Positions 1-64,000 of a DNA stretch of 64,000 bases are shown here, piece by piece (the first letter of the stretch is position 1; each line of letters begins with the position of its first letter). The notes under the pieces were generated by a model, which worked only from the letters and a program-made list of their open reading frames with translations, searched no databases and had not been told where the DNA came from. Origin of the DNA: Arenicola marina. Taxonomy: Eukaryota > Annelida > Polychaeta > Arenicolidae. Location of the stretch: contig OZ025249.1 of the NCBI GenBank assembly GCA_964019135.1, positions 18,129,088-18,193,087 on the forward strand, given 5' to 3'. Both the position numbers and the translations under genes were made by a program.

Positions 1-335
1 ACGGCTGCTGGCGTCATGAGGGATGATACCAGGGACAAGACGGCTGCTGGGGTCGTGAGAGATGATACCAGGGACAAGACGGCTGCTAGGGTCATGAGGG
101 ATGATACCAGGGACAAGACGGCTGCTGGGGTCATGAGGGATGATACCAGGGACAAGACGGTTGCTGGGGTCATGAGGGATGATACCAGGGACAAGACGGC
201 TGCTGGGGTCATGAGGGATGATACCAGGGACAAGACGGCTGCTGGGGTCATGAGGGATGATACCAGGGACAAGACGGCTGCTGGGGTCATGAGGGATGAT
301 ACCAGGGACAAGACGGCTGCTGGGGGTCATGAGGG

Positions 336-3300
336 ATGATACCAGGGACAAGACGGCTGCTGGGGGTCATGAGGGATGATACCAGGGACAAGACGGCTGC
401 TGGGGTCATGAGGGATGATACCAGGGACAAGACGGCTGCTGGGGTCATGAGGGATGATACCAGGGACAAGACGGCTGCTGGGGTCATGAGGGATGATACC
501 AGGGACAAGACGGCTGCTGGGGTCATGAGGGATGATACCAGGGACAAGAGGGCTGCTGGGGTCACGAGGGATGATACCAGGGACAAGACGGCTGCTGGGG
601 TCGTGAGGGATGATACCAGGGACAAGACGGCTGCTGGCGTCATGAGGGATGATACCAGGGACAAGACGGCTGCTGGGGTGATGAGGGATGATACCAGGGA
701 CAAGACGGCTGCTGGGGTCGTGAGGGATGATACCAGGGACAAGACGGCTGCTGGCGTCATGAGGGGTGATACCAGGGACAAGACGGCTGCTGGCGTCATG
801 AGGGATGATACCAGGGACAAGACGGCTGCTGGCGTCATGAGGGATGATACCAGGTACAAGACGGCTGCTGGGCCCATGAGGGATGATACCAGGGACAAGA
901 CGGCTGCTGGGGTCATGAGGGATGATAACAGGTACAAGACGGCTGCTGGGGTCATGAGGGATGATACCAGGGACAGGACGGCTGCTGGCGTCATGAGGGA
1001 TGATACCAGGGACAAGACGGCTGCTGGGGTCGTGAGGGATGATACCAGGGACAAGACGGCTGCTAGGGTCATGAGGGATGATACCAGGGACAAGACGGCT
1101 GCTGGGGTCATGAGGGATGATACCAGGGACAAGACGGTTGCTGGGGTCATGAGGGATGATACCAGGGACAAGACGGCTGCTAGGGGTCATGAGGGATGAT
1201 ACCAGGGACAAGACGGCTGCTGGGGTCATGAGGGATGATACCAGGGACAAGACTGTTGCTGGGGTCATGAGGGATGATACCAGGGACAAGACGGCTGCTG
1301 GGGGTCATGAGGGATGATACCAGGGACAAGACGGCTGCTAGGGTCATGAGGGATGATACCAGGGACAAGACGGCTGCTGGGGTCATGAGGGATGATACCA
1401 GGGACAAGACGGCTGCTGGGGTCATGAGGGATGATACCAGGGACAAGACGGCTGCTAGGGTCGTGAGGGATGATACCAGGGACAAGACGGCTGCTGGGGT
1501 CATGAGGGATGATACCAGGGACAAGACGGCTGCTGGGGTCATGAGGGATGATACCAGGGACAAGACGGCTGCTGGGGTCATGAGGGATGATACCAGGGAC
1601 AAGACGACTGCTGGGGTCGTGAGGGATGATACCAGGGACAAGACGGCTGCTGGCGTCATGAGGGATGATACCAGGGACAAGACGGCTGCTGGGGGTCATG
1701 AGGGATGATACCAGGGACAAGACGGCTGCTAGGGGTCATGAGGGATGATAACAGGTACAAGACGGCTGCTGGGGGTCATTAGGGATGATACCAGGGACAA
1801 GACGGCTGCTAGGGTCGTGAGGGATGATACCAGGGACAAGACGGCTGCTGGGGTCGTGAGGGATGATACCAGGGACAAGACGGCTGCTGGGCTCGTGAGG
1901 GATGATACCAGGGACAAGACGGCTGCTGGGGTCGTGAGGGATGATACCAGGGACAAGACGGCTGCTGGGGTCATGAGGGATGATACCAGGGACAAGACGG
2001 CTGCTGGGGTCGTGAGGGATGATACCAGGGACAAGACGGCTGCTGGGGTCGTGAGGGATGATACCAGGGACAAGACGGCTGCTGGGGTCATGAGGGATGA
2101 TACCAGGGACAAGACGGCTGCTGGGGTCGTGAGGGATGATACCAGGGACAAGACGGCTGCTGGGGTCGTGAGGGATGATACCAGGGACAAGACGGCTGCT
2201 GGGGGTCATGAGGGATGATACCAGGGACAAGACGGCTGCTGGGGTCATGAGGGATGATACCAGGGACAAGACGGCTGCTGGGGTCATGAGGGATGATACC
2301 AGGGACAAGACGGCTGCTGGGGTCATGAGGGATGATACCAGGGACAAGACGGCTGCTGGGGTCATGAGGGATGATACCAGGGACAAGACGGCTGCTGGGG
2401 TCGTGAGGGATGATACCAGGGACAAGACGGCTGCTAGGGTCATGAGGGATGATACCAGGGACAAGACGGCTGCTAGGGGTCATGAGGGATGATACCAGGG
2501 ACAAGACGGCTGCTGGGGTCATGAGGGATGATACCAGGGAGAAGACGGCAGCTGGGGTCATGAGGGATGATACCAGGGACAAGACGGCTGCTGGGGTCAT
2601 GAGGGATGATACCAGGGACAAGACGGCTGCTGGGGTCATGAGGGATGATACCAGGGACAAGACGGCTGCTGGGGTCATGAGGGATGATACCAGGGACAAG
2701 ACGGCTGCTGGGGTCATGAGGGATGATACCAGGTACAAGACGGCTGCTGGGCCCATGAGGGATGATACCAGGGACAAGACGGCTGCTGGGGTCATGAGGG
2801 ATGATAACAGGTACAAGACGGCTGCTGGGGTCATGAGGGATGATACCAGGGACAGGACGGCTGCTGGGGTCATGAGGGATGATACCAGGGACAAGACGGC
2901 TGCTGGGGTCGTGAGAGATGATACCAGGGACAAGACGGCTGCTAGGGTCATGAGGGATGATACCAGGGACAAGACGGCTGCTGGGGTCATGAGGGATGAT
3001 ACCAGGGACAAGACGGTTGCTGGGGTCATGAGGGATGATACCAGGGACAAGACGGCTGCTGGGGTCATGAGGGATGATACCAGGGACAAGACGGCTGCTG
3101 GGGTCATGAGGGATGATACCAGGGACAAGACGGCTGCTGGGGTCATGAGGGATGATACCAGGGACAAGACGGCTGCTGGGGGTCATGAGGGATGATACCA
3201 GGGACAAGACGGCTGCTGGGGGTCATGAGGGATGATACCAGGGACAAGACGGCTGCTGGGGTCATGAGGGATGATACCAGGGACAAGACGGCTGCTGGGG

Positions 3301-4600
3301 TCATGAGGGATGATACCAGGGACAAGACGGCTGCTGGGGTCATGAGGGATGATACCAGGGACAAGACGGCTGCTGGGGTCATGAGGGATGATACCAGGGA
3401 CAAGAGGGCTGCTGGGGTCACGAGGGATGATACCAGGGACAAGACGGCTGCTGGGGTCGTGAGGGATGATACCAGGGACAAGACGGCTGCTGGCGTCATG
3501 AGGGATGATACCAGGGACAAGACGGCTGCTGGGGTCATGAGGGATGATACCAGGGACAAGACGGCTGCTGGGGTCGTGAGGGATGATACCAGGGACAAGA
3601 CGGCTGCTGGCGTCATGAGGGGTGATACCAGGGACAAGACGGTTGCTGGCGTCATGAGGGATGATACCAGGGACAAGACGGCTGCTGGCGTCATGAGGGA
3701 TGATACCAGGTACAAGACGGCTGCTGGGCCCATGAGGGATGATACCAGGGACAAGACGGCTGCTGGGGTCATGAGGGATGATAACAGGTACAAGACGGCT
3801 GCTGGGGTCATGAGGGATGATACCAGGGACAGGACGGCTGCTGGCGTCATGAGGGATGATACCAGGGACAAGACGGCTGCTGGGGTCGTGAGGGATGATA
3901 CCAGGGACAAGACGGCTGCTAGGGTCATGAGGGATGATACCAGGGACAAGACGGCTGCTGGGGTCATGAGGGATGATACCAGGGACAAGACGGTTGCTGG
4001 GGTCATGAGGGATGATACCAGGGACAAGACGGCTGCTAGGGGTCATGAGGGATGATACCAGGGACAAGACGGCTGCTGGGGTCATGAGGGATGATACCAG
4101 GGACAAGACTGTTGCTGGGGTCATGAGGGATGATACCAGGGACAAGACGGCTGCTGGGGGTCATGAGGGATGATACCAGGGACAAGACGGCTGCTAGGGT
4201 CATGAGGGATGATACCAGGGACAAGACGGCTGCTGGGGTCATGAGGGATGATACCAGGGACAAGACGGCTGCTGGGGTCATGAGGGATGATACCAGGGAC
4301 AAGACGGCTGCTAGGGTCGTGAGGGATGATACCAGGGACAAGACGGCTGCTGGGGTCATGAGGGATGATACCAGGGACAAGACGGCTGCTGGGGTCATGA
4401 GGGATGATACCAGGGACAAGACGGCTGCTGGGGTCATGAGGGATGATACCAGGGACAAGACGACTGCTGGGGTCGTGAGGGATGATACCAGGGACAAGAC
4501 GGCTGCTGGCGTCATGAGGGATGATACCAGGGACAAGACGGCTGCTGGGGGTCATGAGGGATGATACCAGGGACAAGACGGCTGCTAGGGGTCATGAGGG
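336..4600. repeat. 2856-bp higher-order duplication inside the 39-bp array
   Basis: The variant pattern of about 336-1750 recurs at 3192-4606 with a constant offset of 2856 bp, equal to 73 units plus nine extra single-base insertions. Shared private variants include the gggcccatgag unit (near 870 and 3726), aacaggtacaag (near 928 and 3784) and gactgttgctgg (near 1252 and 4108). Copying long after the array formed, by unequal exchange or replication slippage, explains this. Confidence 0.85.
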
Positions 4601-6029
4601 ATGATAACAGGTACAAGACGGCTGCTGGGGGTCATTAGGGATGATACCAGGGACAAGACGGCTGCTAGGGTCGTGAGGGATGATACCAGGGACAAGACGG
4701 CTGCTGGGGTCGTGAGGGATGATACCAGGGACAAGACGGCTGCTGGGGTCGTGAGGGATGATACCAGGGACAAGACGGCTGCTGGGGTCATGAGGGATGA
4801 TACCAGGGACAAGACGGCTGCTGGGGTCGTGAGGGATGATACCAGGGACAAGACGGCTGCTGGGGTCGTGAGGGATGATACCAGGGACAAGACGGCTGCT
4901 GGGGTCATGAGGGATGATACCAGGGACAAGACGGCTGCTGGGGTCATGAGGGATGATACCAGGGACAAGACGGCTGCTGGGGGTCATGAGGGATGATACC
5001 ACGGACAAGACGGCTGCTGGGGTCATGAGGGATGATACCAGGGACAAGACGGCTGCTGGGGGTCATGAGGGATGATACCAGGGACAAGACGGCTGCTGGG
5101 GTCATGAGGGATGATACCAGGGACAAGACGGCTGCTGGGGTCGTGAGGGATGATACCAGGGACAAGACGGCTGCTGGGGTCGTGAGGGATGATACTAGGG
5201 ACAAGACGGCTGCTGGGGGTCATGAGGGATGATACCAGGGACAAGACGGCTGCTGGGGTCATGAGGGATGATACCAGGGACAAGACGGCTGCTGGGGTCA
5301 TGAGGGATGATACCAGGGACAAGACGGCTGCTGGGGTCATGAGGGATGATACCAGGGACAAGACGGCTGCTGGCGTCATGAGGGATGATACCAGGGACAA
5401 GACGGCTGCTGGGGGTCATGAGGGATGATACCAGGGACAAGACGGCTGCTGGGGGTCATGAGGGATGATAACAGGTACAAGACGGCTGCTGGGGTCATGA
5501 GGGATGATACCAGGGACAAGACGGCTGCTGGGGTCGTGAGGGATGATACCAGGGACAAGACGGCTGCTGGGGTCATGAGGGATGATACCAGGGACAAGAC
5601 GGCTGCTGGGGTCGTGAGGGATGATACCAGGGACAAGACGGCTGCTGGGGTCGTGAGGGATGATACCAGGGACAAGACGGCTGCTGGGGTCATGAGGGAT
5701 GATACCAGGGACAAGACGGCTGCTGGGGTCATGAGGGATGATACCAGGGACAAGACGGCTGCTGGGGTCATGAGGGATGATACCAGGGACAAGACGGCTG
5801 CTGGGGTCATGAGGGATGATACCAGGGACAAGACGGCTGCTAGGGTCATGAGGGATGATACCAGGGACAGGACGGCTGCTGGGGTCATGAGGGATGATAC
5901 CAGGGACAAGACGGCTGCTGGGGTCATGAGGGATGATACCAGGGACAAGACGGCTGCTGGGGTCATGAGGGATGATACCAGGGACAAGACGGCTGCTGGG
6001 GTCATGAGGGATGATACCAGGGACAAGAC

Positions 6030-8400
6030 GGCTGCTAGGGTCATGAGGGATGATACCAGGGACAGGACGGCTGCTGGGGTCATGAGGGATGATACCAGGG
6101 ACAAGACGGCTGCTAAGGTCATGAGGGATGATACCAGGGACAAGACGGCTGCTGGGGTCATGAGGGATGATACCAGGGACAAGACGGCTGCTGGCGTCAT
6201 GAGGGATAATACCAGGGACAAGACGGCTGCTGGGGTCATGAGGGATGATACCAGGGACAAGACGGCTGCTGGGGTCATGAGGGATGATACCAGGGACAAG
6301 ACGGCTGCTGGGGTCATGAGGGATGATACCAGGGACAAGACGGCTGCTGGGGTCATGAGGGATGATACCAGGGACAAGACGGCTGCTGGGGTCATGAGGG
6401 ATGATACCAGGGACAAGACGGCTGCTGGGGTCATGAGGGATGATACCAGGGACAAGACGGCTGCTAGGGTCATGAGGGATGATACCAGGGACAGGACGGC
6501 TGCTGGGGTCATGAGGGATGATACCAGGGACAAGACGGCTGCTAGGGTCATGAGGGATGATACCAGGGACAAGACGGCTGCTGGGGTCATGAGGGATAAT
6601 ACCAGGGACAAGACGGCTGCTAGGGTCATGAGGGATGATACCAGGGACAGGACGGCTGCTGGGGTCATGAGGGATGATACCAGGGACAAGACGGCTGCTG
6701 GGGTCATGAGGGATGATACCAGGGACAAGACGGCTGCTGGCGTCATGAGGGATAATACCAGGGACAAGACGGCTGCTGGGGTCATGAGGGATGATACCAG
6801 GGACAAGACGGCTGCTGGGGTCATGAGGGATGATACCAGGGAGAAGACGGCTGCTGGGGTCATGAGGGATGATACCAGGGACAAGACGGCTGCTGGGGTC
6901 GTGAGGGATGATACCAGGGACAAGACGGCTGCTGGGGTCATGAGGGATGATACCAGGGACAAGACGGCTGCTGGCGTCATGAGGGATGATACCAGGGACA
7001 AGACGGCTGCTGGGGTCATGAGGGATGATACCAGGGACAAGACGGCTGCTGGGGTCATGAGGGATAATACCAGGGACAAGACGGCTGCTGGGGTCATGAG
7101 GGATGATACCAGGGACAAGACGGCTGCTGGGGTCATGAGGGATGATACCAGGGACAAGACGGCTGCTGGGGTCATGAGGGATGATACCAGGGACAAGACG
7201 GCTGCTGGGGTCATGAGGGATGATACCAGGGACAAGACGGCTGCTGGGGTCATGAGGGATGATACCAGGGACAAGACGGCTGCTGGGGTCATGAGGGATG
7301 ATACCAGGGACAAGACGGCTGCTAGGGTCATGAGGGATGATACCAGGGACAGGACGGCTGCTGGGGTCATGAGGGATGATACCAGGGACAAGACGGCTGC
7401 TAGGGTCATGAGGGATGATACCAGGGACAAGACGGCTGCTGGGGTCATGAGGGATAATACCAGGGACAAGACGGCTGCTGGCGTCATGAGGGATAATACC
7501 AGGGACAAGACGGCTGCTGGGGTCATGAGGGATGATACCAGGGACAAGACGGCTGCTGGGGTCATGAGGGATGATACCAGGGACAAGACGGCTGCTGGGG
7601 TCATGAGGGATGATACCAGGGACAAGACGGCTGCTGGGGTCATGAGGGATGATACCAGGGACAAGACGGCTGCTGGGGTCATGAGGGATGATACCAGGGA
7701 CAAGACGGCTGCTGGGGTCATGAGGGATGATACCAGGGACAAGACGGCTGCTAGGGTCATGAGGGATGATACCAGGGACAGGACGGCTGCTGGGGTCATG
7801 AGAGATGATACCAGGGACAAGACGGCTGCTAGGGTCATGAGGGATGATACCAGGGACAAGACGGCTGCTGGGGTCATGAGGGATAATACCAGGGACAAGA
7901 CGGCTGCTAGGGTCATGAGGGATGATACCAGGGACAGGACGGCTGCTGGGGTCATGAGGGATGATACCAGGGACAAGACGGCTGCTGGGGTCATGAGGGA
8001 TGATACCAGGGACAAGACGGCTGCTGGCGTCATGAGGGATAATACCAGGGACAAGACGGCTGCTGGGGTCATGAGGGATGATACCAGGGACAAGACGGCT
8101 GCTGGGGTCATGAGGGATGATACCAGGGAGAAGACGGCTGCTGGGGTCATGAGGGATGATACCAGGGACAAGACGGCTGCTGGGGTCGTGAGGGATGATA
8201 CCAGGGACAAGACGGCTGCTGGGGTCATGAGGGATGATACCAGGGACAAGACGGCTGCTGGCGTCATGAGGGATGATACCAGGGACAAGACGGCTGCTGG
8301 GGTCATGAGGGATGATACCAGGGACAAGACGGCTGCTGGGGTCATGAGGGATGATACCAGGGACAAGACGGCTGCTGGGGTCATGAGGGATGATACCTGG
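6030..8400. repeat. 1287-bp (33-unit) higher-order duplication inside the 39-bp array
   Basis: Marker variants recur at an offset of exactly 1287 bp: gggataat at 6204/7491 and 6594/7881, gacaggacgg near 6061/7348, 6490/7777 and 6650/7937, and gagaagacgg at 6841/8128. All copies keep the 39-bp register without indels. Confidence 0.85.
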
Positions 8401-8905
8401 GACAAGACTGTTGCTGGGGTCATGAGGGATGATACCAGGGACAAGACAGCTGCTGGGGTCATGAGGGATGATACCAGGGACAAGACGGCTGCTGGGGTCA
8501 TGAGGGATGATACCTGGGACAAGACTGTTGCTGGGGTCATGAGGGATGATACCAGGGACAAGACGGCTGCTGGGGTCATGAGGGATGATACCAGGGACAA
8601 GACGGCTGCTGGGGTCATGAGGGATGATACCAGGGACAAGACGGCTGCTGGGGTCATGAGGGATGATACCAGGGACAAGACTGCTGCTGGGGTCATGAGG
8701 GATGATACCAGGGACAAGACGGCTGCTGGGGTCATGAGGGATGATACCAGGGACAAGACGGCTGCTGGGGTCATGAGGGATGCTACCAGGGACAAGACGG
8801 CTGCTGGGGTCATGAGGGATGATACCAGGGACAAGACGGCTGCCGGGGTCATGAGGGATGATACCAGGGACAAGACGGCTGCCGGGGTCATGAGGGATGA
8901 TACGT

Positions 8906-9019: not shown

Positions 9020-9699
9020 ACATTCACTCACCGGCTCATAGTAGTGTCATAGTAACAGTCACTCACCGGCTTGTGACATACCAACAGTGACGTAGCCACT
9101 TACCGACTCGTGACATACTGACAGTAACACAGCCACTCGCCGACTCGTGACACACCGACACAGAGACGCAGCCACTTACCGACTCGTGACATACCGACAC
9201 AGTGACACAGTCACTCACCGGCTCGTGACATAGTAACACAGTCACTCACCGGCTCGTGACATACCGACACAGTGACGCAGTCACTCACCGACTCGCGACA
9301 CACTGACAGTCACTCGCCGACTCGTGACACACCGACACAGTGACGCAGCCACTTAACGACTCGTGACATACCGACAGTGACACAGCCACTTAACGACTCG
9401 TGACATACCGACAGTGACACAGCCAATTACCGATTCGTGACATACCGACACAGTGACACAGTCACTCACCGGCTCGTGACATACCGACATAGTGACACAG
9501 TCACTCACCGGCTCGTGACATACCGACAGTGACACAGTCACTCACCGGCTCGTGACATACCGACATAGTGACACAGTCACTCACCGGCTCGTGACATACC
9601 GACATAGTGACACAGTCACTCACCGGCTCGTCACATACCGAGAGTGACACAGCCACTCACCGACTCGTGACATACCGACACAGTGACACAGCGACTCAC
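9020..9699 (-). repeat. 39-bp minisatellite built on the 5' splice site of CPLANE1 exon 4
   Basis: About 18 imperfect units of 36-39 bp, running directly from the exon 4/intron boundary. Read on the minus strand each unit contains cacgagtcggtgagtg or a close variant, matching the true junction aacgagtcg|gtgagtcg at 9700/9699. I count about a dozen GTGAGT copies including the true site, two GTAAGT, two GCGAGT and a few decayed ones. Each unit also has a second donor-like tcggtatgt. The array presumably arose by tandem duplication of the junction. Using the next donor (at about 9660) would add 39 bp in frame, 13 residues (VSRCVTVSVCHES); the following unit contains an in-frame TGA. Confidence 0.9.
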
Positions 9700-9932
9700 C
9701 GACTCGTTGACAGCGAACACGGCGTGGACGCTGACGTCAGGACATCCCTTGCTGGGCAGCGGGACGCCGTCGTCAGGCTGCACACGCGACCACGTGCCAA
9801 CCAGCACGTTGGAGGCGGGGTCAAACAGGCCGTGATTGACGTCCAGCTCCCAGACAAACACGTGCTCCGTATCCAGGACAACCAACATGCGCGAGGCGCT
9901 GTCTGAGATGAACAGCTGGATCTTAAAAGGCT
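9700..9932 (-). CDS. CPLANE1: CPLANE1 exon 4 (beta-propeller part)
   Basis: A 233-bp internal exon: acceptor ttgcctttgcag|ag, donor gagtcg|gtgagt. It enters in phase 1 (G+AG gives Glu) and leaves in phase 0, matching exon 3. The 77 full codons include the WD/propeller-like strand VVLDTEHVFVWELDV and GTWSRVQPDDGVPLPSKG. From memory, the human protein has CIFLWEY, GQWSQIKPEEAVLLPS and VVNAVFIKNE at the same place; here the end reads SVHAVFAVNES. CPLANE1 acts with INTU, FUZ, WDPCP and RSG1 at the ciliary base to recruit intraflagellar transport A proteins. The next exon is not in the window, so the following intron is at least 9.7 kb and mostly minisatellite. Confidence 0.88.
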
Positions 9933-12800: not shown

Positions 12801-12956
12801 CTGTTTTGAACTCAGCGTTGTCGTCCGCGTGGTGCGGCACGTGGGTTGCCTTGGGAACGGTGAAGTCTGATAGACCGGGCACAAATCGCAGCCAATCAGA
12901 ATCCTTGTGCCACAGAAAGAGGTCCCCGCTTTGAAGAATTCCACCGATGAAATGTC
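12801..12956 (-). CDS. CPLANE1: CPLANE1 exon 3 (beta-propeller part)
   Basis: A 156-bp exon: acceptor ctctttaattaag|ga and donor aaaacag|gtaaat. It enters in phase 1 and exits in phase 1. Joined to exon 2 it reads AHSDN-GHFIGGILQSGDLF and continues LWHKDSDWLRFVPG. The GDLFLW strand is a typical propeller blade signature. From memory, human CPLANE1 has AWLAGVLTTGELFLWNKDQD in the same place. The second half (LSDFTVPKATHVPHHADDNA) is a less conserved loop. The phase agreement across three junctions is strong internal support. Confidence 0.88.
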
Positions 12957-13206: not shown

Positions 13207-13342
13207 CATTGTCTGAGTGGGCCAGAGCCAGTGTGTCAGCCAGCAGAGGTTGTAACCTAGGAATCTTCCGTTTCGTTTTGCCAGAGGGCAGGTAGAGGAC
13301 ACTGGCGCGACGCTCATCTAAAAGGAGAATGCTCTCCTGCTT
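13207..13342 (-). CDS. CPLANE1: CPLANE1 exon 2
   Basis: A 136-bp exon with acceptor gttgttattccag|aag and donor caatg|gtaggt, entering in phase 0 and leaving in phase 1. It encodes KQESILLLDERRASVLYLPS, GKTKRKIPRLQPLLADTLAL and AHSDN. From memory, the human protein has KESVFLLDDKFINEINLLSG followed by KTKKKIPSLQPLLKD; the near-identity of (S)GKTK(R/K)KIP(R/S)LQPLL is what identified the gene. The acceptor directly abuts a 37-bp minisatellite whose units copy it. Confidence 0.92.
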
Positions 13343-14015
13343 CTGGAATAACAACACCAACGTGACGTAGTACACATAGCTTCTGGAATAATACCAACGT
13401 GACGTAGTACACATAGCTTCTGGAATAACCCCAACGTGACGTAGTACACATAGCTTCTGGAATAATACCAACGTGACGTAGTACACATAGCTTCTGGAAT
13501 AATACCAACGTGACGTAGTACACATAGCTTCTGGAATAATACCAACGTGACGTAGTACACATAGCTTCTGGAATAATACCAACGTGACGTAGTACACATA
13601 GCTTCTGGAATAACACCAACGTGACGTAGTACACATAGCTTCTGGAATAATACCAACGTGACGTAGTACACATAGCTTCTGGAATAATACCAACGTGACG
13701 TAGTACACATAGCTTCTGGAATAACCCCAACGTGACGTAGTAGACATAGCTTCTCAAATAACAACACCAACGTGACGTAGTACACATAGAGTCTGGAACA
13801 CCACTAACGTAACGTAGTACACATAACTTCTGGAATAACCCCACCAAAGTGACGTAGTACACATAGCTTCTCAAATAACAACACCAACGTGGCGTAGTAC
13901 ACATAACTTCTGGCACAACAACACCAAAGTGACGTAGTACACATAACTTCTGGAATAACCCCACCAAAGTGACGTAGTCCACATGGCTTCTCAAATAACC
14001 CATCGACCTCGTGCA
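13343..14015 (-). repeat. 37-bp minisatellite built on the 3' splice site of CPLANE1 exon 2
   Basis: About 18 units, most of them 37 bp and a few 38-41 bp near the ends. Read on minus, each contains tattattccagaagc, which matches the real junction ttgttattccag|aagcag at 13343/13342. About 13 copies keep the CAG; others read TTTGAGAAG. The repeat is open in all three minus frames. The first two acceptors are 40 bp apart and the rest mostly 37 bp, so about every third copy would add sequence in frame. Each unit also contains gtgacgta, a CRE-like half-site, probably incidental. Confidence 0.9.
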
Positions 14016-15405: not shown

Positions 15406-17745
15406 CAATCAGGGCCCAACAATGCGAGCAACAGGACACCGTAAGCCACGCGAATAGTAGGCGTCAGGCCATTGCAGGGCTACAGGACACCATAGGCCAC
15501 GCGTATAGCAGAGCATGGTGAACCAGAGAGCGGACGTCAGGCTATGGCAGGGCTACAGGACACCATAGGCCACGCGTATAGTAGGGCATGGTGAACCAGA
15601 GAGCCGGCGTCAGGCTATGGCAGGGATACAGGACACCATAGGCCACGCGTATAGCAGGGCATGGTGAACCAGAGAGCCGGCGTCAGGCTATGGCAGGGCT
15701 ACAGGACACCATAGGCCACGCGTATAGTAGGGCATGGTGAACCAGAGAGCCGGCGTCAGGCTATGGCAGGGCTACACTACACCATAGGCCACGCGTATAG
15801 TAGGGCATGGTGAACCAGAGAGCCGGCGTCAGGCCATAGCAGGGCTACAGGACACCATAGGCCACGCGTATAGTAGGGCTTGGTGAACCAGAGAGCCGGC
15901 GTCAGGCTATGGCAGGGCTGCAGGACACCATAGGCCACGCGTATAGTAGGGCATGGTGAACCAGAGAGCCGGCGTCAGGCCATTGCAGGGCTACAGGACA
16001 CCATAGGCCACGCGTATAGTAGGGCATGGTGAACCAGAGAGCTGGCGTCAGGCTATGGCAGGGCTACAGGACACCATAGGCCACGCGTATAGCAGGGCAT
16101 GGTGAACCAGAGAGCCGGCATCAGGCTATGGCAGGGCTACAGGACACCATAGGCCACGCGTATAGTGGGGCATGGTGAACCACAGAGCCGGCGTCAGGCT
16201 ATGGCAGGGCTACGGGACACCATAGGCCACGCGTATAGCAGGGCATGGTGACCCAGAGAGCCGGCGTCAGGCTATGGCAGGGCTACAGGACACCATAGGC
16301 CACGCGTATAGTAGGGCATGGTGAACCAGAGAGCCGGCGTCAGGCTATGGCAGGGCTACAGGACACCATAGGCCACGCGTATAGTAGGGCATGGTGAACC
16401 AGAGAGCCGGCGTCAGGCTATGGCAGGGCTACAGGACACCATAGGCCACGCGTATAGTAGGGCATGGTGAACCAGAGAGCCGGCGTCAGGCCATAGCAGG
16501 GCTACAGGACACCATATGCCACGCGTATAGTACGGCATGGTGAACCAGAGAGCCGGCGTCAGGCTATGGCAGGGCTACAGGACACCATAGGCCACGCGTA
16601 TAGTAGGGCATGGTGAACCAGAGAGCCGGCGTCAGGCCATAGCAGGGCTACAGGACACCATAGGCCACGCGTATAGTAGGGCATGGTGAACCAGAGAGCC
16701 GGCGTCAGGCTATGGCAGGGCTACAGGACACCATAGGCCACGCGTATAGCAGAGCATGGTGAACCAGAGAGCCGGCATCAGGCTATGGCAGGGCTACAGG
16801 ACACCATAGGCCACGCGTATAGTGGGGCATGGTGAACCACAGAGCCGGCGTCAGGCTATGGCAGGGCTACGGGACACCATAGGCCACGCGTATAGCAGGG
16901 CATGGTGACCCAGAGAGCCGGCGTCAGGCTATGGCAGGGCTACAGGACACCATAGGCCACGCGTATAGTAGGGCATGGTGAACCAGAGAGCCGGCGTCAG
17001 GCTATGGCAGGGCTACAGGACACCATAGGCCACGCGTATAGTAGGGCATGGTGAACCAGAGAGCCGGCGTCAGGCTATGGCAGGGCTACAGGACACCATA
17101 GGCCACGCGTATAGTAGGGCATGGTGAACCAGAGAGCCGGCGTCAGGCCATAGCAGGGCTACAGGACACCATATGCCACGCGTATAGTACGGCATGGTGA
17201 ACCAGAGAGCCGGCGTCAGGCTATGGCAGGGCTACAGGACACCATAGGCCACGCGTATAGTAGGGCATGGTGAACCAGAGAGCCGGCGTCAGGCCATAGC
17301 AGGGCTACAGGACACCATAGGCCACGCGTATAGTAGGGCATGGTGAACCAGAGAGCCGGCGTCAGGCTATGGCAGGGCTACAGGACACCATAGGCCACAC
17401 GTATAGTGGGGCATGGTGAACCAGATAGCCGGCGTCAGGCTATGGCAGGGCTACAGGACACCATAGGCCACGCGCATAGTAGGGCATGGTGAACCAGAGA
17501 GCCGGCGTCAGGCTATGGCAGGGCTACAGGACACCATAAGCCACGCGTATAGTAGGGCATGGTGAACCAGAGCCGGCGTCAGGCCATAGCAGGGTTACAG
17601 GACACCATAGGCCACGCGTATAGCAGGGCATGGTGAACCAGAGGGCCGGCGTCAAGCTATGGCAGGGCTACAGGACACCATAGGCCACGCGTATAGTAGG
17701 GCATGGTGAACCAGAGAGCCGGCGTCAGGCTATGGCAGGGCAACA
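15406..17745. repeat. 73-bp minisatellite (about 32 units) in CPLANE1 intron 1
   Basis: Units of 73 bp with core caggacaccataggccacgc followed by gtatagtagggcatggtgaacc. A block with private variants (ggcatcagg, gtggggcatgg, gctacggg, gtgaccc) occurs at 16117 and again at 16774, an offset of 657 bp or exactly nine units, showing higher-order duplication. As 73 is not a multiple of three, no long frame results. Confidence 0.97.
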
Positions 17746-21329: not shown

Positions 21330-21545
21330 TTTATATTCAGGACGCTTTAACCACTTTTGGTCATCGCGTCAATGGGAGAAGGAAGGGAGAGTGGGGCCAT
21401 GTCCCCGGGGGTAACCCCCTACTCTTTGAGAAGAAGGACATGGGATCTTTATCCTGCGACCACACAGACATGCCGTTAGGCTCTCAGGTGGCCAGATCAC
21501 TCAAGGCGAGCGCTCTAACCCACTGAGCTACCGGGCCGGCCCCAA
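21330..21545 (-). mobile_element. tRNA-derived SINE
   Basis: On the minus strand, from 21545, the sequence begins ggggccggcccggtagctca then gtgggttagagcgctcgcct, a tRNA-like head with a good A box (TAGCTCAGTGG). About 50 bp further on, gtcgcaggataaagatccca is a degenerate B box. The tRNA-unrelated part continues to about 21330. No intact cloverleaf or 3' end is expected, so it is a SINE rather than a tRNA gene. It has the same orientation as CPLANE1 and lies in intron 1. Confidence 0.75.
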
Positions 21546-21641: not shown

Positions 21642-21722
21642 CTGTCCCACAAAGGCCATGTGGGGCCATGGTTTCTTCCGCCTGATGGTGCTGGAGGCCA
21701 GCACCTCCAGCTCCAGTTTCAT
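21642..21722 (-). CDS. CPLANE1: CPLANE1 first coding exon (start codon)
   Basis: An 81-bp coding segment of 27 codons in phase 0, with donor ggacag|gtgagg. It begins MKLELEVLASSTIRRKKPWP and ends HMAFVGQ. From memory, human CPLANE1 begins MEIRLEVLTSTGIKQKKPWP and reaches WLGQ before the segment found here in exon 2, so both start codon and splice junction agree. The start is the first ATG in frame with this conserved N-terminus; two upstream ATGs in the 5'UTR only open a five-codon frame ending in TGA. The four exons in the window give 202 residues, well under a tenth of this very large protein (about 3200 residues in vertebrates). Confidence 0.92.
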
Positions 21723-24971: not shown

Positions 24972-27900
24972 TATGACGGACATGAATCCAATACTGACGA
25001 CCGGGGTTCAGACAAGACTCTAATACTGACGACCGGGGTTCAGACAACACTCCAATACTGACGACCGGGGTTCAGACAAGACTCCAATACTGACGACCGG
25101 GGTTCAGACAACACTCCAATACTGACGACCGAGGTTCAGACAACACTCCAATACTGACGACCGAGGTTCAGACAAGACTTCAATACTGACAACCGGGGTT
25201 CAGACAAGACTCCCATACTGACGACCGAGGTGCAGACAACACTCCCATACTGACGACTGGGGTTCAGACAACACTCCAATACTGACGTCTGGGGTTCAGA
25301 CAACACTCCCATACTGACGACCGGGGTTCAGACAACACTCCAATACTGACGACCGAGGTTCAGAAAAGACTCCAATACTGACGACTGGGGTTCAGACAAC
25401 ACTCCAATACTGACGACTGGGGTTCAGACAAGACTCCCATACTGACGACCGAGGTTCAGACAAGACTCCAATACTGACGACCGAGGTTCAGACAAGACTC
25501 CAATACTGACGACCGGGGTTCAGACAAGACTCAAATACTGACGACCGGGCTTCAGACAACACTCCAATACTGACGACCGAGGTTTGGACAAGACTCCCAT
25601 ACTGACGACCGAGGTGCAGACAACACTCCAATACTGACGACCGGGGTTCAGACAACACTCCAATACTGACGACCGGGGTTCAGACAACACTCCAATACTG
25701 ACGACCGAGGTTTGGACAAGACACCAATACTGACGACTGGGGTTCAGACAACACTCCAATACTGACGACCGGGGTTCAGACAACACTCCAATACTGACGA
25801 CCGGGGTTCAGACAAGACACCAATACTGACGACCGAGGTTTGGACAAGACTCCCATACTGACGACCGGGGTTCAGACAAGACCCCAATACTGACGACAGG
25901 GGTTCAGACAACACTCCAATACTGACGACCGAGGTTTGGACAAGACTCCCATACTGACGACCGAGGTGCAGACAACACTCCAATACTGACGACTGGGGTT
26001 CAGACAACACTCCAATACTGACGACCGGGGTTCAGACAACACTCCAATACTGACGACCGGGGTTCAGACAAGACTCCCATACTGACGACAGGGGTTCAGA
26101 CAAGACACCAATACTGACGACCGAGGTTTGGACAAGACTCCAATACTGACGACCGGGGTTCAGACAAGACCCCAATACTGACGACAGGGGTTCAGACAAG
26201 ACTCCAATACTGACGACCGGGGTTCAGACAAGACTCCCATACTGACGACAGGGGTTCAGACACGACTCCAATACTGGCGACCGAGGTTCAGACAAGACTC
26301 CCATACTGACGACAGGGGTTCAGACAAGACTCCAATACTGACGACCGGGGTTCAGACAAGACTCCCATACTGACGACAGGGGTTCAGACAACACTCCAAT
26401 ACTGACGACCGAGGTTTGGACAAGACTCCCATACTGACGACCGGGGTTCAGACAAGACTCCAATACTGACGACCGGGGTTCAGACAACACTCCAATACTG
26501 ACGACCGAGGTTCAGACAACACTCCAATACTGACGACCGAGGTTTGGACAAGACTCCCATGCTGACGACCGGGGTTCAGACAAGACTCCCATACTGACGA
26601 CCGGGGTTCAGACAACACTCCAATACTGACGACCGAGGTTTGGACAAGACTCCCATACTGACGACCGGGGTTCAGACAACACTCCCATACTGACGACTGG
26701 GGTTCAGACAAGACTCCAATACTGACAACCGGGGTTCAGACAACACTCCAATACTGACAACCGGGGTTCAGACAACACTCCAATACTGACAACCGGGGTT
26801 CAGACAACACTTCAATACTGACAACCGGGGTTCAGACAACACTCCAATACTGACGACTGGGGTTCAGACAAGACTCCAATACTGGCGACTGGGGTTCAGA
26901 CAAGACTCCAATACTGGCGACCGGGGTTCAGACAACACTCCAATACTGACGACTGGGGTTCAGACAAGACTCCAATACTGGCGACTGGGGTTCAGACAAC
27001 ACTCCAATACTGGCGACTGGGGTTCAGACAACACTCCAATACTGACGACCGAGGTTTAGACAAGACTCCCATACTAACGACCGGGGTTCAGACAAGACTC
27101 CCATACTGACGACCGGGGTTCAGACAACACTCCAATACTGACGACCGAGGTTTGGACAAGACTCCCATACTGACGACTGGGGTTCAGACAACACTCCCAT
27201 ACTGACGACCGGGGTTCAGACAAGACTCTAATACTGGCGACTGGGGTTCAGACAAGACTCCAATACTGGCGACTGGGGTTCAGACAAGACTCCAATACTG
27301 GCGACTGGGGTTCAGACAAGACTCCAATACTGGCGACCGGGGTTCAGACAACACTCCAATACTGACGACTGGGGTTCAGACAACACTCCAATACTGACGA
27401 CCGGGGTTCAGACAAGACTCCAAAACTGACCACCGAGGTTCAGACAACACTCCAATACTGACGACCGAGGTTCAGACAAGACCCCGATACTGACGACCGA
27501 GGTTTGGACAAGACTCCCATACGGACGACCGGGGTTCAGACAAGACTCCAATACTGACGACCGGGGTTCAGACAAGACTCCAAAACTGACGACCGAGGTT
27601 CAGACAACACTCCAATACTGACGACCGAGGTTCAGACAAGACTCCCATACTGACGACCGAGGCTCAGACAAGACTCCCATACTGACGACCGAGGTTCAGA
27701 CAACACTCCAATACTGACGACCGAGGTTTAGACAACACTCCAATACTGGCGACCGGGGTTCAGACAACACTCCAATACTGACGACCGAGGTTCAGACAAG
27801 ACTCCCATACTGACGACCGAGGCTCAGACAAGACTCCCATACTGACGACCGAGGTTCAGACAACACTCCAATACTGACGACCGAGGTTTAGACAACACTC

Positions 27901-28818
27901 CAATACTGGCGACCGGGGTTCAGACAACACTCCAATACTGACGACCGAGGTTCAGACAACACTCCAATACTGACGACCGAGGTTTAGACAACACTCCAAT
28001 ACTGGCGACCGGGGTTCAGACAACACTCCAATACTGACGACCGAGGTTCAGACAAGACACCAATACTGACGACCGAGGTTCAGACAACACTCCAATACTG
28101 ACGACTGGGGTTCAGAAAAGACTCCAATACTGGCGACCGGGGTTCAGACAACACTCCAATACTGACGACCGAGGTTCAGACAAGACCCCAATACTGACGA
28201 CCGAGGTTTAGACAACACTCCCATACTGACGACCGAGGTTCAGACAAGACTCCCATACTGACGACCGAGGTTTAGACAACACTCCAATACTGACGACCGA
28301 GGGTCAGACAAGACTCCCATACTGACGACCGGGGTTCAGACGAGACTCCAATACTGACGACCGAAGTTCAGACAACACTCCAATACTGACGACCGGGGTT
28401 CAGAAAACACTCCAATACTGACGACCGGGGTTCAGACAACACTCCAATACTGACGACCGAGGTTCAGACAACACTCCAATACTGACGACTGGGGTTCAGA
28501 CAAGACCCCAATACTGACGACCGGGGTTCAGACAACACTCCAATACTGACGACAGGGGTTCAGGCAACACTCCAATACTGACGACAGGGGTTCAGACAAG
28601 ACTCCAATACTGACGACCGGGGTTCAGACAAGACTCCAATACTGACGACCGGGGTTCAGACAAGACTCCCATACTGACGACCGGGGTTCAGACAAGACTC
28701 CCATACTGACGACCGGGGTTCAGACAAGACTCCCATACTGACGACCGGGGTTCAGACAAGACTCCAACACTGACGACCGGGGTTCAGACAAGACTCCCAT
28801 ACTGACGACTGGGGTTCA
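24972..28818. repeat. 32-bp minisatellite (about 120 units)
   Basis: Units read caatactgacgaccggggtt then cagacaagactc. Variants at a few fixed sites (gaccggg/gaccgag/gactggg/gacaggg; acaagact/acaacact; ccaat/cccat; gttcaga/gtttgga) are mixed along the array. A local higher-order period of 160 bp (five units) is marked by ggctcagac at 27661 and 27821. Open minus frames of 80-90 codons arise because three units equal 96 bp; they are not genes. Confidence 0.97.
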
Positions 28819-58575: not shown

Positions 58576-58593
58576 AATTACGGGTCAATGGGT

Positions 58594-61500
58594 TCATGGG
58601 TGACCCACACCTGTTACATCCATGGTGACTTGGTCTCGGTCTATACTTCATGGCTGACCCACACCTCTTATATCCATGGTGACGTGGTCTCGGTCTATCC
58701 TTATGGGTGACCCACACCTCTTATATCCATGGTGACGTGGTCTTGGTCTATCCTTCATGGCTGACCCTCACCTCTTATATCCATGGTGACGTGGTCTGGG
58801 TCTATCCTTCATGGCTGACCCACACCTCTTACATCCATGGTGACTTGGTCTCGGTCTATGCTTCATGGGTGACCCACACCTCTTATATCCATGGTGACGT
58901 GGTCTCGGTCTATCCTTCATGGGTGATCGACCCACACCTCTTATATCCATGGTGACGTGGTCTTGGTCTATCCTTCATGGCTGACCCTCACCTCTTATAT
59001 CCATGGTGACGTGGTCTCGGTCTATCCTTCATGGCTGACCCACACCTCTTACATCCATGGTGACGTGGTCTTGGTCTATCCTTCATGGCTGACCCACACC
59101 TCTTACATCCATGGTGACGTGGTCTCGGTCTATCCTTCATGGCTGACCCACACCTCTTACATCCATGGTGACGTGGTCTCGGTCTATCCTTATGGCTGAC
59201 CCACACCTCTTACATCCATGGTGACGTGGCCTCGGTCTATCCTTATGGGTGACCCACACCTCTTATATCCATGGTGACGTGGTCTTGGCCTATCCTTCAT
59301 GGCTGACCCACACCTCTTACATCCATGGTGACGTGGTCTTGGTCTATCCTTCATGGCTGACCCACACCTCTTATATCCATGGTGACGTGGTCTCGGTCTA
59401 TCCTTCATGGGGGATCGACCCACACCTCTTATATCCATGGTGACGTGGTCTCGGTCTATCGTTCATGGCTGACCCACACCTCTTACATCCATGGTGACGT
59501 GGTATCGGTCTATCCTTCATGGCTGACCCACACCTTTTACATCCATGGTGACGTGGTCTTGGTCTATCCTTCATGGCTGACCCACACCTCTTATATCCAT
59601 GGTGACGTGGTCTGGGCCTATCCTTCATGGGTGACCGACACCTTTTACATCCATGGTGACGTGGTCTTGGTCTATCCTTCATGGCTGACCCACACCTCTT
59701 ATATCCATGGTGACGTGGTCTTGGCCTATCCTTCATGGGTGACCCACACCTCTTACATCCATGGTGACGTGGTCTTGGTCTATCCTTCATGGCTGACCCA
59801 CACCTCTTATATCCATGGTGACGTGGTCTTGGCCTATCCTTATGGGTGACCCACACCTCTTACATCCATGGTGACGTGCACGATCGGCCTATCCTTCATG
59901 GGTGACCCACACCTCTTACATCCATGGTGACGTGGTCTTGGTCTATCCTTCATGGCTGACCCACACCTGTTATATCCATGGTTACGTGGTCTCGGTCTAT
60001 CCTTCATGGCTGACCCACACCTCTTACATCCATGGTGACGTGGTCTTGGTCTATCCTTCATGGCTGACCCACACCTCTTATATCCATGGTGACGTGGTCT
60101 TGGTCTATCCTTCATGGCTGACCCACACCTCTTACATCCATGGTGACGTGGTCTTGGTCTATCCTTCATGGCTGACCCACACCTCTTACATCCATGGTGA
60201 AGTGGTCTCGGTCTATCCTTCATGGCTGACCCACACCTCTTATATCCATGGTGACGTGGTCTCGGTCTATCCTTCATGGCTGACCCACACCTTTTACATC
60301 CATGGTGACGTGGTCTTGGCCTATCCTTCATGGCTGACCCACACCTCTTACATCCATGGTGACGTGGTCTTGGTCTATCCTTCATGACTGACCCACACCT
60401 CTTATATCCATGGTGACATGGTATCGGTCTATCCTTCATGCCTGACCCACACCTCTTATATCCATGGTGACGTGGTCTTGGCCTATCCTTCATGGGTGAT
60501 CGACCCACACCTCTTACATCCATGGTGACGTGGTCTCGGTCTATCCTTCATGGCTGACCCACACCTCTTACATCCATGGTGATGTGGTCTCGGTCTATCC
60601 TTCATGGCTGACCCACACCTCTTACATCCATGGTGACGTGGTCTCGGTCTATCCTTCACGGCTGACCCACACCTTTTATATCCATGGTGACGTGGTCTCG
60701 GTCTATCCTTCATGGGTGACCCACACCTCTTACATCCATGGTGACGTGGTCTTGGTCTATCCTTCATGGCTGACCCACACCTCTTACATCCATGGTGACG
60801 TGGCCTCGGTCTATCCTTCATGGCTGACCCACACCTCTTACATCCATGGTGACGTGGTCTCGGTCTATCCTTCATGGCTGACCCACACCTCTTATATCCA
60901 TGGTGACGTGGTCTCGGTCTATCCTTCATGGGTGACCCACACCTCTTACATCCATGGTGACGTGGTCTCGGTCTATCCTTCATGGCTGACCCACACCTCT
61001 TACATCCATGGTGACATGGTATCGGTCTATCCTTATGGGTGACCCACACCTCTTACATCCATGGTGACGTGGTCTCGGTCTATCCTTCATGGCTGACCCA
61101 CACCTCTTACATCCATGGTGATGTGGTCTTGGTCTATCTTTCATGGCTGACCCACACCTCTTACATCCATGGTGACGTGGTCTCGGTCTATCCTTCATGG
61201 CTGACCCACACCTCTTACATCCATGGTGACGTGGTCTTGGTCTATCCTTCATGGCTGACCCACACCTCTTACATCCATGGTGACGTGGTCTCGGTCTATC
61301 CTTCATGGCTGACCCACACCTTTTACATCCATGGTGACGTGGTCTTGGTCTATCCTTCATGGCTGACCCACACCTCTTATATCCATGGTGACGTGGTCTT
61401 GGCCTATCCTTCATGGCTGACCCACACCTTTTACATCCATGGTGACGTGGTCTCGGTCTATCCTTCATGGCTGACCCACACCTCTTACATCCATGGTGAC

Positions 61501-64000
61501 GTGGTCTCGGTCTATCCTTCATGGCTGACCCACACCTCTTACATCCATGGTGACGTGGTCTCGGTCTATCCTTATGGGTGACCCACACCTCTTACATCCA
61601 TGGTGACATGGTATCGGTCTATGCTTCATGGCTGACCCACACCTCTTACATCCATGATGACGTGGTCTCGGTCTATCCTTATGGGTGACCCACACTTCTT
61701 ACATCCATGGTGACGTGGTCTCGGTCTATCCTTATGGGTGACCCACACCTCTTACATCCATGGTGACGTGGTCTCGGTCTATCCTTATGGGTGACCCACA
61801 CCTCTTACATCCATGGTGACGTGGTCTCGGTCTATCCTTCATGGCTGACCCACACCTCTTATATCCATGGTGACGTGGTCTCGGTCTATCTTTATGGGTG
61901 ACCCACACCTCTTACATCCATGGTGACGTGGTCTCGGTCTATCCTTCATGGCTGACCCACACCTCTTACATCCATGGTGACGTGGTCTCGGTCTATCCTT
62001 AATGGCTGACCCACACCTCTTATATCCATGGTGACGTGGTCTCGGTCTATCCTTATGGGTGACCCACACTTCTTACATCCATGGTGACGTGGTCTCGGTC
62101 TATCCTTCATGGCTGACCCACACCTCTTACATCCATGGTGACGTGGTCTCGGTCTATCCTTCATGGCTGACCCACACCTCTTATATCCATGGTGACGTGG
62201 TCTTGGCCTATCCTTATGGCTGACCCACACCTCTTACATCCATGGTGACGTGGTCTTGGCCTATCCTTATGGGTGACCCACACCTCTTACATCCATGGTG
62301 ACGTGGTCTCGGTCTATCCTTCATGGCTGACCCACACCTTTTACATCCATGGTGACGTGGTCTCGGTCTATCCTTCATGGGTGATCGACCCACACCTCTT
62401 ACATCCATGGTGACGTGGTCTCGGTCTATCCTTCATGGCTGACCCACACCTCTTACATCCATGGTGACGTGGTCTTGGTCTATCCTTCATGGGTGATCGA
62501 CCCACACCTCTTACATCCATGGTGACGTGGTCTCGGTCTATCCTTCATGGCTGACCCACACCTCTTACATCCATGGTGACGTGGTCTTGGTCTATCCTTC
62601 ATGGCTGACCCACACCTCTTACATACATGGTGACGTGGTCTCGGTCTATCCTTCATGGCTGACCCACACTTCTTACATCCATGGTGACGTGGTCTTGGTC
62701 TATCCTTCATGGCTGACCCACACCTCTTACATCCATGGTGACGTGGTCTCGGTCTATCCTTCATGGCTGACCCACACCTTTTACATCCATGGTGACGTGG
62801 TCTTGGTCTATCCTTCATGGCTGACCCACACCTCTTATATCCATGGTGACGTGGTCTCGGTCTATCCTTCATGGCTGACCCACACCTCTTACATCCATGG
62901 TGACGTGGTCTCGGTCTATCCTTTATGGCTGACCCACACCTCTTACATCCATGGCGACGTGGTCTCGGTCTATCCTTCATGGCTGACCCACACCTCTTAT
63001 ATCCATAGTGACGTGGTCTTGGTCTATCCTTCATGGCTGACCCACACCTCTTATATCCATGGTGACGTGGTCTTGGTCTATCCTTCATGGCTGACCCACA
63101 CCTCTTATATCCATGGTGACGAGGTCTTGGCCTATCCTTCATGGCTGACCCACACCTCTTACATCCATGGTGACGTGGTCTCGGTCTATCCTTCATGGCT
63201 GACCCACACCTCTTATATCCATGGTGACGTGGTCTCGGTCTATCCTTATGGGTGACCCACACCTCTTACATCCATGGTGACGTGGTCTCGGTCTATCTTT
63301 CATGGCTGACCCACACCTCTTATATCCATGGTTACGTGATCTTGGCCTATCCTTATGAGTGACCCACACCTCTTACATCCATGGTGACGTGGTCTTGGCC
63401 TATCCTTCATGGGTGACCCACACCTCTTATATCCATGGTGACGTGGTCTCGGTCTATCCTTCATGGCTGACCCACACCTCTTACATCCATGGTGACGTGG
63501 TCTCGGTCTATCCTTCATGGCTGACCCACACCTCTTATATCCATGGTGACGTGGTCTTGGCCTATCCTTCATGGCTGACCCACACCTCTTGCATCCATGG
63601 TGACATGGTATCGGTCTATCCTTATGGGTGACCCACACCTCTTACATCCATGGTGACGTGGTCTCGGTCTATCCTTCATGGCTGACCCACACCTTTTACA
63701 TCCATGGTGACGTGGTCTTGGTCTATCCTTCATGGCTGACCCACACCTCTTATATCCATGGTGACGTGGTCTTGGCCTATCCTTCATGGGTGATCGACCC
63801 ACACCTCTTATATCCATGGTGACGTGGTCTCGGTCTATCCTTCATGGCTGACCCACACCTCTTACATCCATGGTGACGTGGTCTCGGTCTATCCTTCATG
63901 GGTGACCCACACCTCTTACATCCATGGTGACGTGGTCTTGGTCTATCCTTCATGGCTGACCCACACCTCTTACATCCATGGTGACGTGGTCTCGGTCTAT
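58594..64000. repeat. 54-bp minisatellite (about 100 units), continues off right edge
   Basis: Units of gacccacacctcttacatcc, atggtgacgtggtctcggtc and tatccttcatggct. Fifty-four is a multiple of three, so repeats such as THTSYIHGDVVSVYPSWL (plus) and a basic KDRPRPRHHGCKRCG-type repeat (minus) stay open. Frequent 53-bp units (ccttatgggtgacc) and longer units with gtgatcgaccc (58924, 59413, 60497, 62390, 62495, 63789) break the frame. Nearly every unit contains CCATGG and TGACGTGG. No start, promoter or splice evidence for translation. Confidence 0.97.

Follow-up and report, generated by a model that had tools for sequence, protein, structure and literature searches.

Tandem arrays containing splice junctions in a CPLANE1-like gene and at sampled 5′ splice sites of an annelid genome

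Described junction arrays and the present locus

Tandem arrays called mirages are described in the available portions of two reports at the 5′ or 3′ exon-intron boundaries of the lancelet genes Adh3, BflGb6, BflGb9, PGBD5, and troponin C (PMC3087553, PMC3902484). In the excerpted text of the globin paper, the Adh3 data and the authors' own RT-PCR results suggest that splicing is undisturbed by mirages (PMC3087553). Lancelets were the source of the described splice-junction arrays that we found in the literature, as given in these partial texts (PMC3087553, PMC3902484), which is no proof of their absence elsewhere. Other systems share single features with the arrays analyzed here. The Rogers model of intron gain, as cited in the available part of PMC3087553, also obtains extra splice sites by tandem duplication across a junction (an AG|GT proto-splice site), whereas we saw no new intron, the copies lying inside an existing one. 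Intronic minisatellites of Caenorhabditis elegans have likewise been tied to splicing, namely, to multiple alternative splicing, but units containing a splice site are not stated in the excerpted text (PMC4039745). The first-intron repeats of earthworm metallothionein genes are also minisatellite-like intron units of an annelid, but the portion of that report at hand gives no junction repeat (PMC12783039), and the corresponding portion of a further report describes intronic repeats, with no junction repeat reported (PMC3045353).

The window (i.e., the whole stretch of DNA analyzed, 64,000 nucleotides, C2:18129088-18193087) belongs to an 867-Mb genome and carries a CPLANE1-like gene with one array at a 3′ splice site and another at a 5′ splice site. 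As in the lancelet mirages known from the excerpted reports (PMC3087553, PMC3902484), the arrays span an exon-intron boundary, many of their units carry splice signals, and the authentic junction adjoins them. They differ from those mirages in that the host is an annelid, sampled donors are hit far more often than acceptors, many arrayed donors have coding-strand G-runs, and the unit of the focal acceptor array has four exon bases. The kind of array is thus already described in lancelets. Our preferred reading, which we consider fairly probable, is that both arrays are mirage-type minisatellites seeded at junctions, that such arrays favor donors, and that the array at the focal acceptor represents an infrequent case whose rate is at or below that of the background. 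Nothing about the rate of the acceptor half of the observation stands out; the donor half points to a broader, testable phenomenon. The birth of minisatellites is poorly understood and the choice of 5′ splice site is central in splicing, and a genome with many donors ahead of runs of near-identical further donors would be a natural experiment on both the origin of arrays and the choice of the proper donor among equally strong copies. The donor bias narrows the possible mechanisms, and with the present host the phenomenon reaches beyond lancelets into an apparently different phylum.

The CPLANE1-like gene and its two arrays

The gene lies on the minus strand. The coding part of exon 1 (21642..21722; MKLELEVLASSTIRRKKPWPHMAFVGQ) ends in phase 0 at a donor, CAG|GTGAGG, with a score of 11.4. 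Exon 2 (13207..13342; 136 nt, phase 0 to 1; KQESILLLDERRASVLYLPSGKTKRKIPRLQPLLADTLALAHSDN) starts with AAGCAGG and ends at the donor ATG|GTAGGT. Exon 3 (12801..12956; (G)HFIGGILQSGDLFLWHKDSDWLRF...), placed by eye, has the acceptor AATTAAG|GACATTTC and the donor ACAG|GTAAAT, and its phase fits that of exon 2; its scoring used a start one base off from the 12956 boundary given here. The join of exon 1 to exon 2 keeps the phase, has no gap, and reads ...AFVGQKQESILLLDE..., which makes the exon-proximal AG the probable acceptor of exon 2. We take this join to align gap-free with the N terminus of human CPLANE1. A match to PF15392 (Joubert; E value, 5.9e-9), the domain that marks CPLANE1, was found on the minus strand at C2:18095697-18095855, about 33 kb before the first position of the window and therefore downstream on the strand of the gene, to whose transcript it putatively belongs. 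A Pfam search with the two N-terminal exon-derived pieces of the gene returned no family.

The region from 13207 to 14015 consists of exon 2 and the acceptor array in intron 1 (13343..13999, minus strand), which has 17 units of 37 to 40 bp, most of them ending CCAG|AAG. TRF placed it at 13339-13999 (period, 37; 17.4 copies; score, 936), and when the minus strand was cut at AG, 17 units, each 37 or 40 bp long, were obtained between 13989 and 13343. The motif TATTCCAGAAG occurs 13 times in the array, with the exon-proximal copy counted, and is absent from both strands of the rest of the window. The 37-bp array of about 13 repeats that a sequence-only reading had placed at the acceptor of exon 2 is therefore real. 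Its final unit ends ...TTATTCCAG|AAGC, directly 5′ of the exon 2 start at 13342 (AAGCAGGAG). Past the AG, the array unit reads AAGCTATG and exon 2 reads AAGCAGGA, with four exon bases (AAGC) common to both. In terms of what defines a mirage, the array thus adjoins its exon, and its unit contains the AG and just four exon bases.

The 17 upstream AGs have acceptor scores from -2.2 to 7.1, and seven upstream copies score 7.1, compared with 6.8 for the exon-proximal site. All three minus-strand frames are open across the core of the array, as the same reading had noted; this is weak evidence, because shuffling a 37-bp unit left it just as free of stops in 4.2% of cases. Its statement that every third acceptor would keep the frame of exon 2 holds in the core, where the unit ends place in-frame upstream acceptors at 114, 225, and 336 bp.

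Arrays near exons are to be expected in this window, since tandem arrays make up about 38% of its length (sum of 16 spans picked from the TRF output). One of these, a 73-bp minisatellite of 31 copies (15460..17745, on the strand of the gene, minus), lies in intron 1 away from the junctions. Three very large minisatellites occupy positions 1-8903 (39 bp × 228), 24979-28818 (32 bp × 120), and 58593-64000 (54 bp × 100), and two of the three reach a window edge. Against this background, the acceptor array could be an ordinary intronic minisatellite that abuts exon 2 by chance, or the acceptor could later have been taken from the array. The arrays filling the window and the commonness of one-sided array edges in introns speak for such an origin, as does the sharing of AAGC alone with exon 2; yet the array stops immediately beyond the AG, and a match over four exon bases would arise by chance in about 1 in 256 cases. 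We regard this account of the acceptor array as rather unlikely, although it is the strongest of the rival explanations. As a separate observation, the minus strand of intron 1 at 21480-21542 (GGCCCGGTAGCTCAGTGGGTTAGAGCG...) resembles by eye the head of a tRNA-derived SINE; ARAGORN detected no tRNA in the window.

The donor array adjoins a later exon of the same gene, 3.6 kb from the acceptor array, and holds both an exon part and the splice signal in its unit. This exon (9700..9932, minus strand), with its start and its acceptor CTTTGCAG|AG placed by eye, ends GTCAACGAGTCG|GTGAGT, and its 3′ end, AACGAGTCG, matches the array unit. The array itself (9033..9700, minus strand) comprises 18 units of 29 to 39 bp, as delimited by TRF and unit cutting. 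The units mostly read GTCACGAG[TC]CG|GTGAGT (CACGAG[TC]CG|GTGAGT) or a near match, with 8 contiguous exon bases, or 11 with a one-base gap. Fifteen donor-like sites were listed in the array, with scores of 4.9 to 10.4; 14 of the 15 contain GTGAGT or GTAAGT, and several later copies outscore the first (10.4 versus 8.8). Between the window and the PF15392 match, tandem CAGGTGAGT...GGGGG units occur on the minus strand at C2:18123519-18124050, possibly forming another donor array of this gene.

Array starts at sampled donors and acceptors

Junctions were sampled in the same genome from 135 exons of three families (TCP1, kinesin, and myosin), of which 205 junctions were kept, i.e., 105 donors and 100 acceptors. 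The exons derive from 50 of 77, 45 of 133, and 40 of 49 reported matches for myosin, kinesin, and TCP1, respectively. First-look candidates were scored in 65/168, 122/240, and 71/71 cases in the three families, in the same order, so that a first-look bias is possible. Junctions were chosen by consensus score, and those scoring <5 were dropped. Five kinesin loci (L041, L042, L044, L045, and L050) were left out before counting, as they lie on short contigs, contain in-frame TAG/TAA, and are a probable contaminant. The kinesin matches on these short contigs (C390, C536, and C504) have in-frame TAG, with TAA also in four of five and TGA in none, and they probably represent a contaminant with a ciliate-like code.

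In the strict test, a 24-bp window across each junction was compared with the intron side, and a copy was recorded for a match of ≥19/24 at ≤300 bp. A copy was present at 17 of 105 donors and at 1 of 100 acceptors (Fisher P = 8e-5). The families were in agreement, with 5/33, 4/29, and 8/43 donors and 0/31, 1/32, and 0/37 acceptors for TCP1, kinesin, and myosin, respectively. Over 24 combinations of threshold and window position, any copy was found at 13 to 18 donors and at 0 to 3 acceptors. Sixteen of the 17 arrayed donors were one-sided, with copies on the intron side only; the remaining one, L122, has an extra copy on the exon side too. The junction of L103, and perhaps that of L122, was probably placed one unit too far downstream, and both still stand at an array start.

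As a background, we examined 16,170 intronic positions away from exons, of which 393 had copies on the right side alone and 490 on the left side alone; among intronic decoys, one-sided copies were present at 13/691 donor-like and 22/729 acceptor-like sites. Because arrays inflate the denominator, the rate was expressed as edge/(edge + none), which gave about 3% for the collapsed intron background. Against 3%, the 16 one-sided donors of 105 have a binomial P of ~1e-7, and against a harsher 5.5% a P of ~2e-4, values to be read with the caveat that neither positions nor exons belonging to one gene are independent (grouping by contig position assigns the 17 arrayed donors to 14 genes). In long loci, the rate of exon-facing array edges was 14% at the donor and 1.6 to 4.7% in the complete bins more than 120 bp away; for acceptors, the junction itself had 2.4%, and the rate peaked at 8.3% between 240 and 360 bp upstream.

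The donor excess is an excess of array starts and not of coverage, as raw coverage does not favor junctions. Long arrays cover much of the introns, and any copy on either side within 300 bp was found at 23% of intron positions (3,722/16,170), which is above the 16% of donors; the decoys gave 241/691 (donor-like) and 223/729 (acceptor-like).

The strict test recorded no copies at the focal acceptor, owing to the sharing of just four exon bases and to three additional bases in the last unit. A looser test with four exon bases in the window flagged the focal acceptor in six of six settings. With it, 1 to 3 of 100 acceptors were positive, compared with 3.9 to 4.9% of AG decoys and 4.0 to 4.6% of random positions, and donors were positive in 14 to 18 of 105 cases. 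In this sample, donors are frequent array starts, far above background, and acceptors do not exceed the background. The array at the focal acceptor is therefore an infrequent, chance-level case, no commoner than the background would give, and it does not come from the donor process. In an intron-rich gene of such a genome, donor arrays can be expected, and an acceptor array occasionally. The proposal that splice junctions in general are favored by arrays consequently stands for donors (17/105 versus ~3%) and falls for acceptors (1-3/100 versus ~4-5%). The suggestion that the acceptor array mirrors the donor array is borne out insofar as both exist in one gene, but the acceptor rate is that of the background, and the two are thus not alike in cause.

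Several side observations came from the sampled genes. Donor arrays with 37 to 81 exon bases per unit are present in myosin and kinesin genes (L018, L038, L039, L051, L057, L091, and L102). A myosin gene at C4:367768-384767 shows repeated matches to the same parts of the model (about 110-152 and 590-640), perhaps representing clusters of alternative exons. A candidate class of exons set in long stop-free arrays was dropped after frames were recomputed for 12 loci, with 64 to 134 amino acids in 11 of them and 355 in one.

G-runs and the proposed origin of donor arrays

The units at arrayed donors contain 3 to 81 exon bases, followed by the donor and often by a G-rich spacer; in L091, for example, a 42-bp unit is made up of 37 exon bases and GTAAG. 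These arrays, for example those of L091 and L018, probably derive from the exon, because exon sequence matched by the protein family profile continues in the copies. G content from +6 to +40 was 43% in arrayed donors and 24% in the others. Donors with a coding-strand GGGGG within +2 to +45 were arrayed in 9 of 12 cases, compared with 8 of 93 without such a run, and a CCCCC control gave 2 of 8 and 15 of 97, respectively; over nine settings of run and window, P was ≤0.0011 for G and ≥0.05 for C. In the whole genome, pairs of CAGGTGAGT enclosed GGGGG 494 times and CCCCC 22 times (39 and 9 for the reversed-pattern control). At the level of words, tandem donor words made up 27.5% of copies versus 21.9% in the reversed control, a modest excess, and acceptor words had the opposite trend (74 pairs in 5,383 copies versus 159 in 5,187 for the reverse). 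All of these paired-word counts, those enclosing G- or C-runs included, are of neighbors within arrays rather than of arrays, so that a few large arrays weigh heavily.

Away from exons, the edge rate was 7.9% at G-runs and 8.3% at C-runs, compared with ~3%, and edges occurred at 3 of 25 intronic donor-like decoys followed by GGGGG and at 10 of 422 decoys without it. The effect of G-runs is therefore partly nonspecific to junctions. G-runs as a general seed of arrays, a candidate that we considered, were unsupported, given that C-runs raise the intronic edge rate equally. The earlier idea that R-loops or stalled replication at exon edges may underlie the arrays gains circumstantial support from the coding-strand G-runs, at donors only.

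The sequence of events that we envisage would begin with a single tandem duplication of a segment of ~37 to 39 bp spanning the exon-intron junction. The copies would then multiply inside the intron, the exon-proximal one staying fixed because coding and splicing need it, and the remaining intronic ones drifting; by analogy with lancelet mirages, normal splicing from the exon-proximal site would be expected. Such short tandem duplications are probably made by a process acting at the exon-to-intron edge and tied to coding-strand G-runs near the intron start, the donor perhaps being duplicated at a G-run-associated stall or break. A duplicated donor would be harmless, as it would leave the authentic donor first in the transcript; a duplicated acceptor would put decoys ahead of the authentic one, and acceptor arrays may thus be lost by selection. 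We put forward only tentatively, as something that may well prove otherwise, the wider proposal that an edge-specific, G-run-aided process turns about 1 in 6 to 7 5′ splice sites (the sample rate) into arrays carrying coding sequence. If this is true, the spliceosome would have to select a single donor from many nearly identical copies in much of the gene set.

A G-run close to a donor can serve as a splicing enhancer. Donor arrays might accordingly be merely tolerated, with no mutational hot spot, the G-runs keeping the proper donor dominant. The acceptor deficit fits such a filter, but if tolerance were the sole factor, array starts would not be expected to be more frequent at donors than in freely evolving intron, as they are in the sample (16 of 105 one-sided donors against ~3%), and we judge this explanation unlikely. 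The data would fit the G-runs either as a cause of the arrays or as a condition of their tolerance, save that tolerance by itself should not exceed the level of neutral intron.

Seeding at junctions in general, acting on donors and acceptors alike, is an improbable alternative to the donor-biased seeding that we favor. It would account for the presence of one array of each kind as its two products in the CPLANE1-like gene, for an acceptor repeat elsewhere (L066, where a 24-bp window with 10 exon bases matches at 22/24), and for the lancelet mirages at both 5′ and 3′ boundaries in the excerpted report (PMC3087553). The Fisher test on sampled donors and acceptors contradicts it, however, as do acceptor repeats at or below background. 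Least probable of all is that the spare acceptors and donors are used to give variable mRNA, with in-frame steps producing protein length variants, since, despite the open frames over the acceptor-array core and the several copies that outscore the authentic sites, exon 1 continues into exon 2 in phase, two-thirds of the acceptor steps shift the frame, and lancelet mirages are reported, in the text available, without disturbance of regular splicing (PMC3087553).

A minor observation concerns the host. The mitochondrial contig (C762) has the order nad3, nad2 (as PF00361), cox1, cox2, with nad3, nad2, and cox2 identified by Pfam. ARAGORN returned no tRNA from the mitochondrial sequence; the tRNAs, atp8, and cox3 were read by eye only. 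The contig uses the table 5 code, with AGA at conserved Ser sites. A lancelet host, which the mirage reports had brought into consideration, was rejected on account of AGA at these Ser sites and of a gene order that we take to differ from that of lancelets. The order nad3-nad2-cox1-cox2 together with AGA as Ser is, we presume, the typical annelid arrangement.
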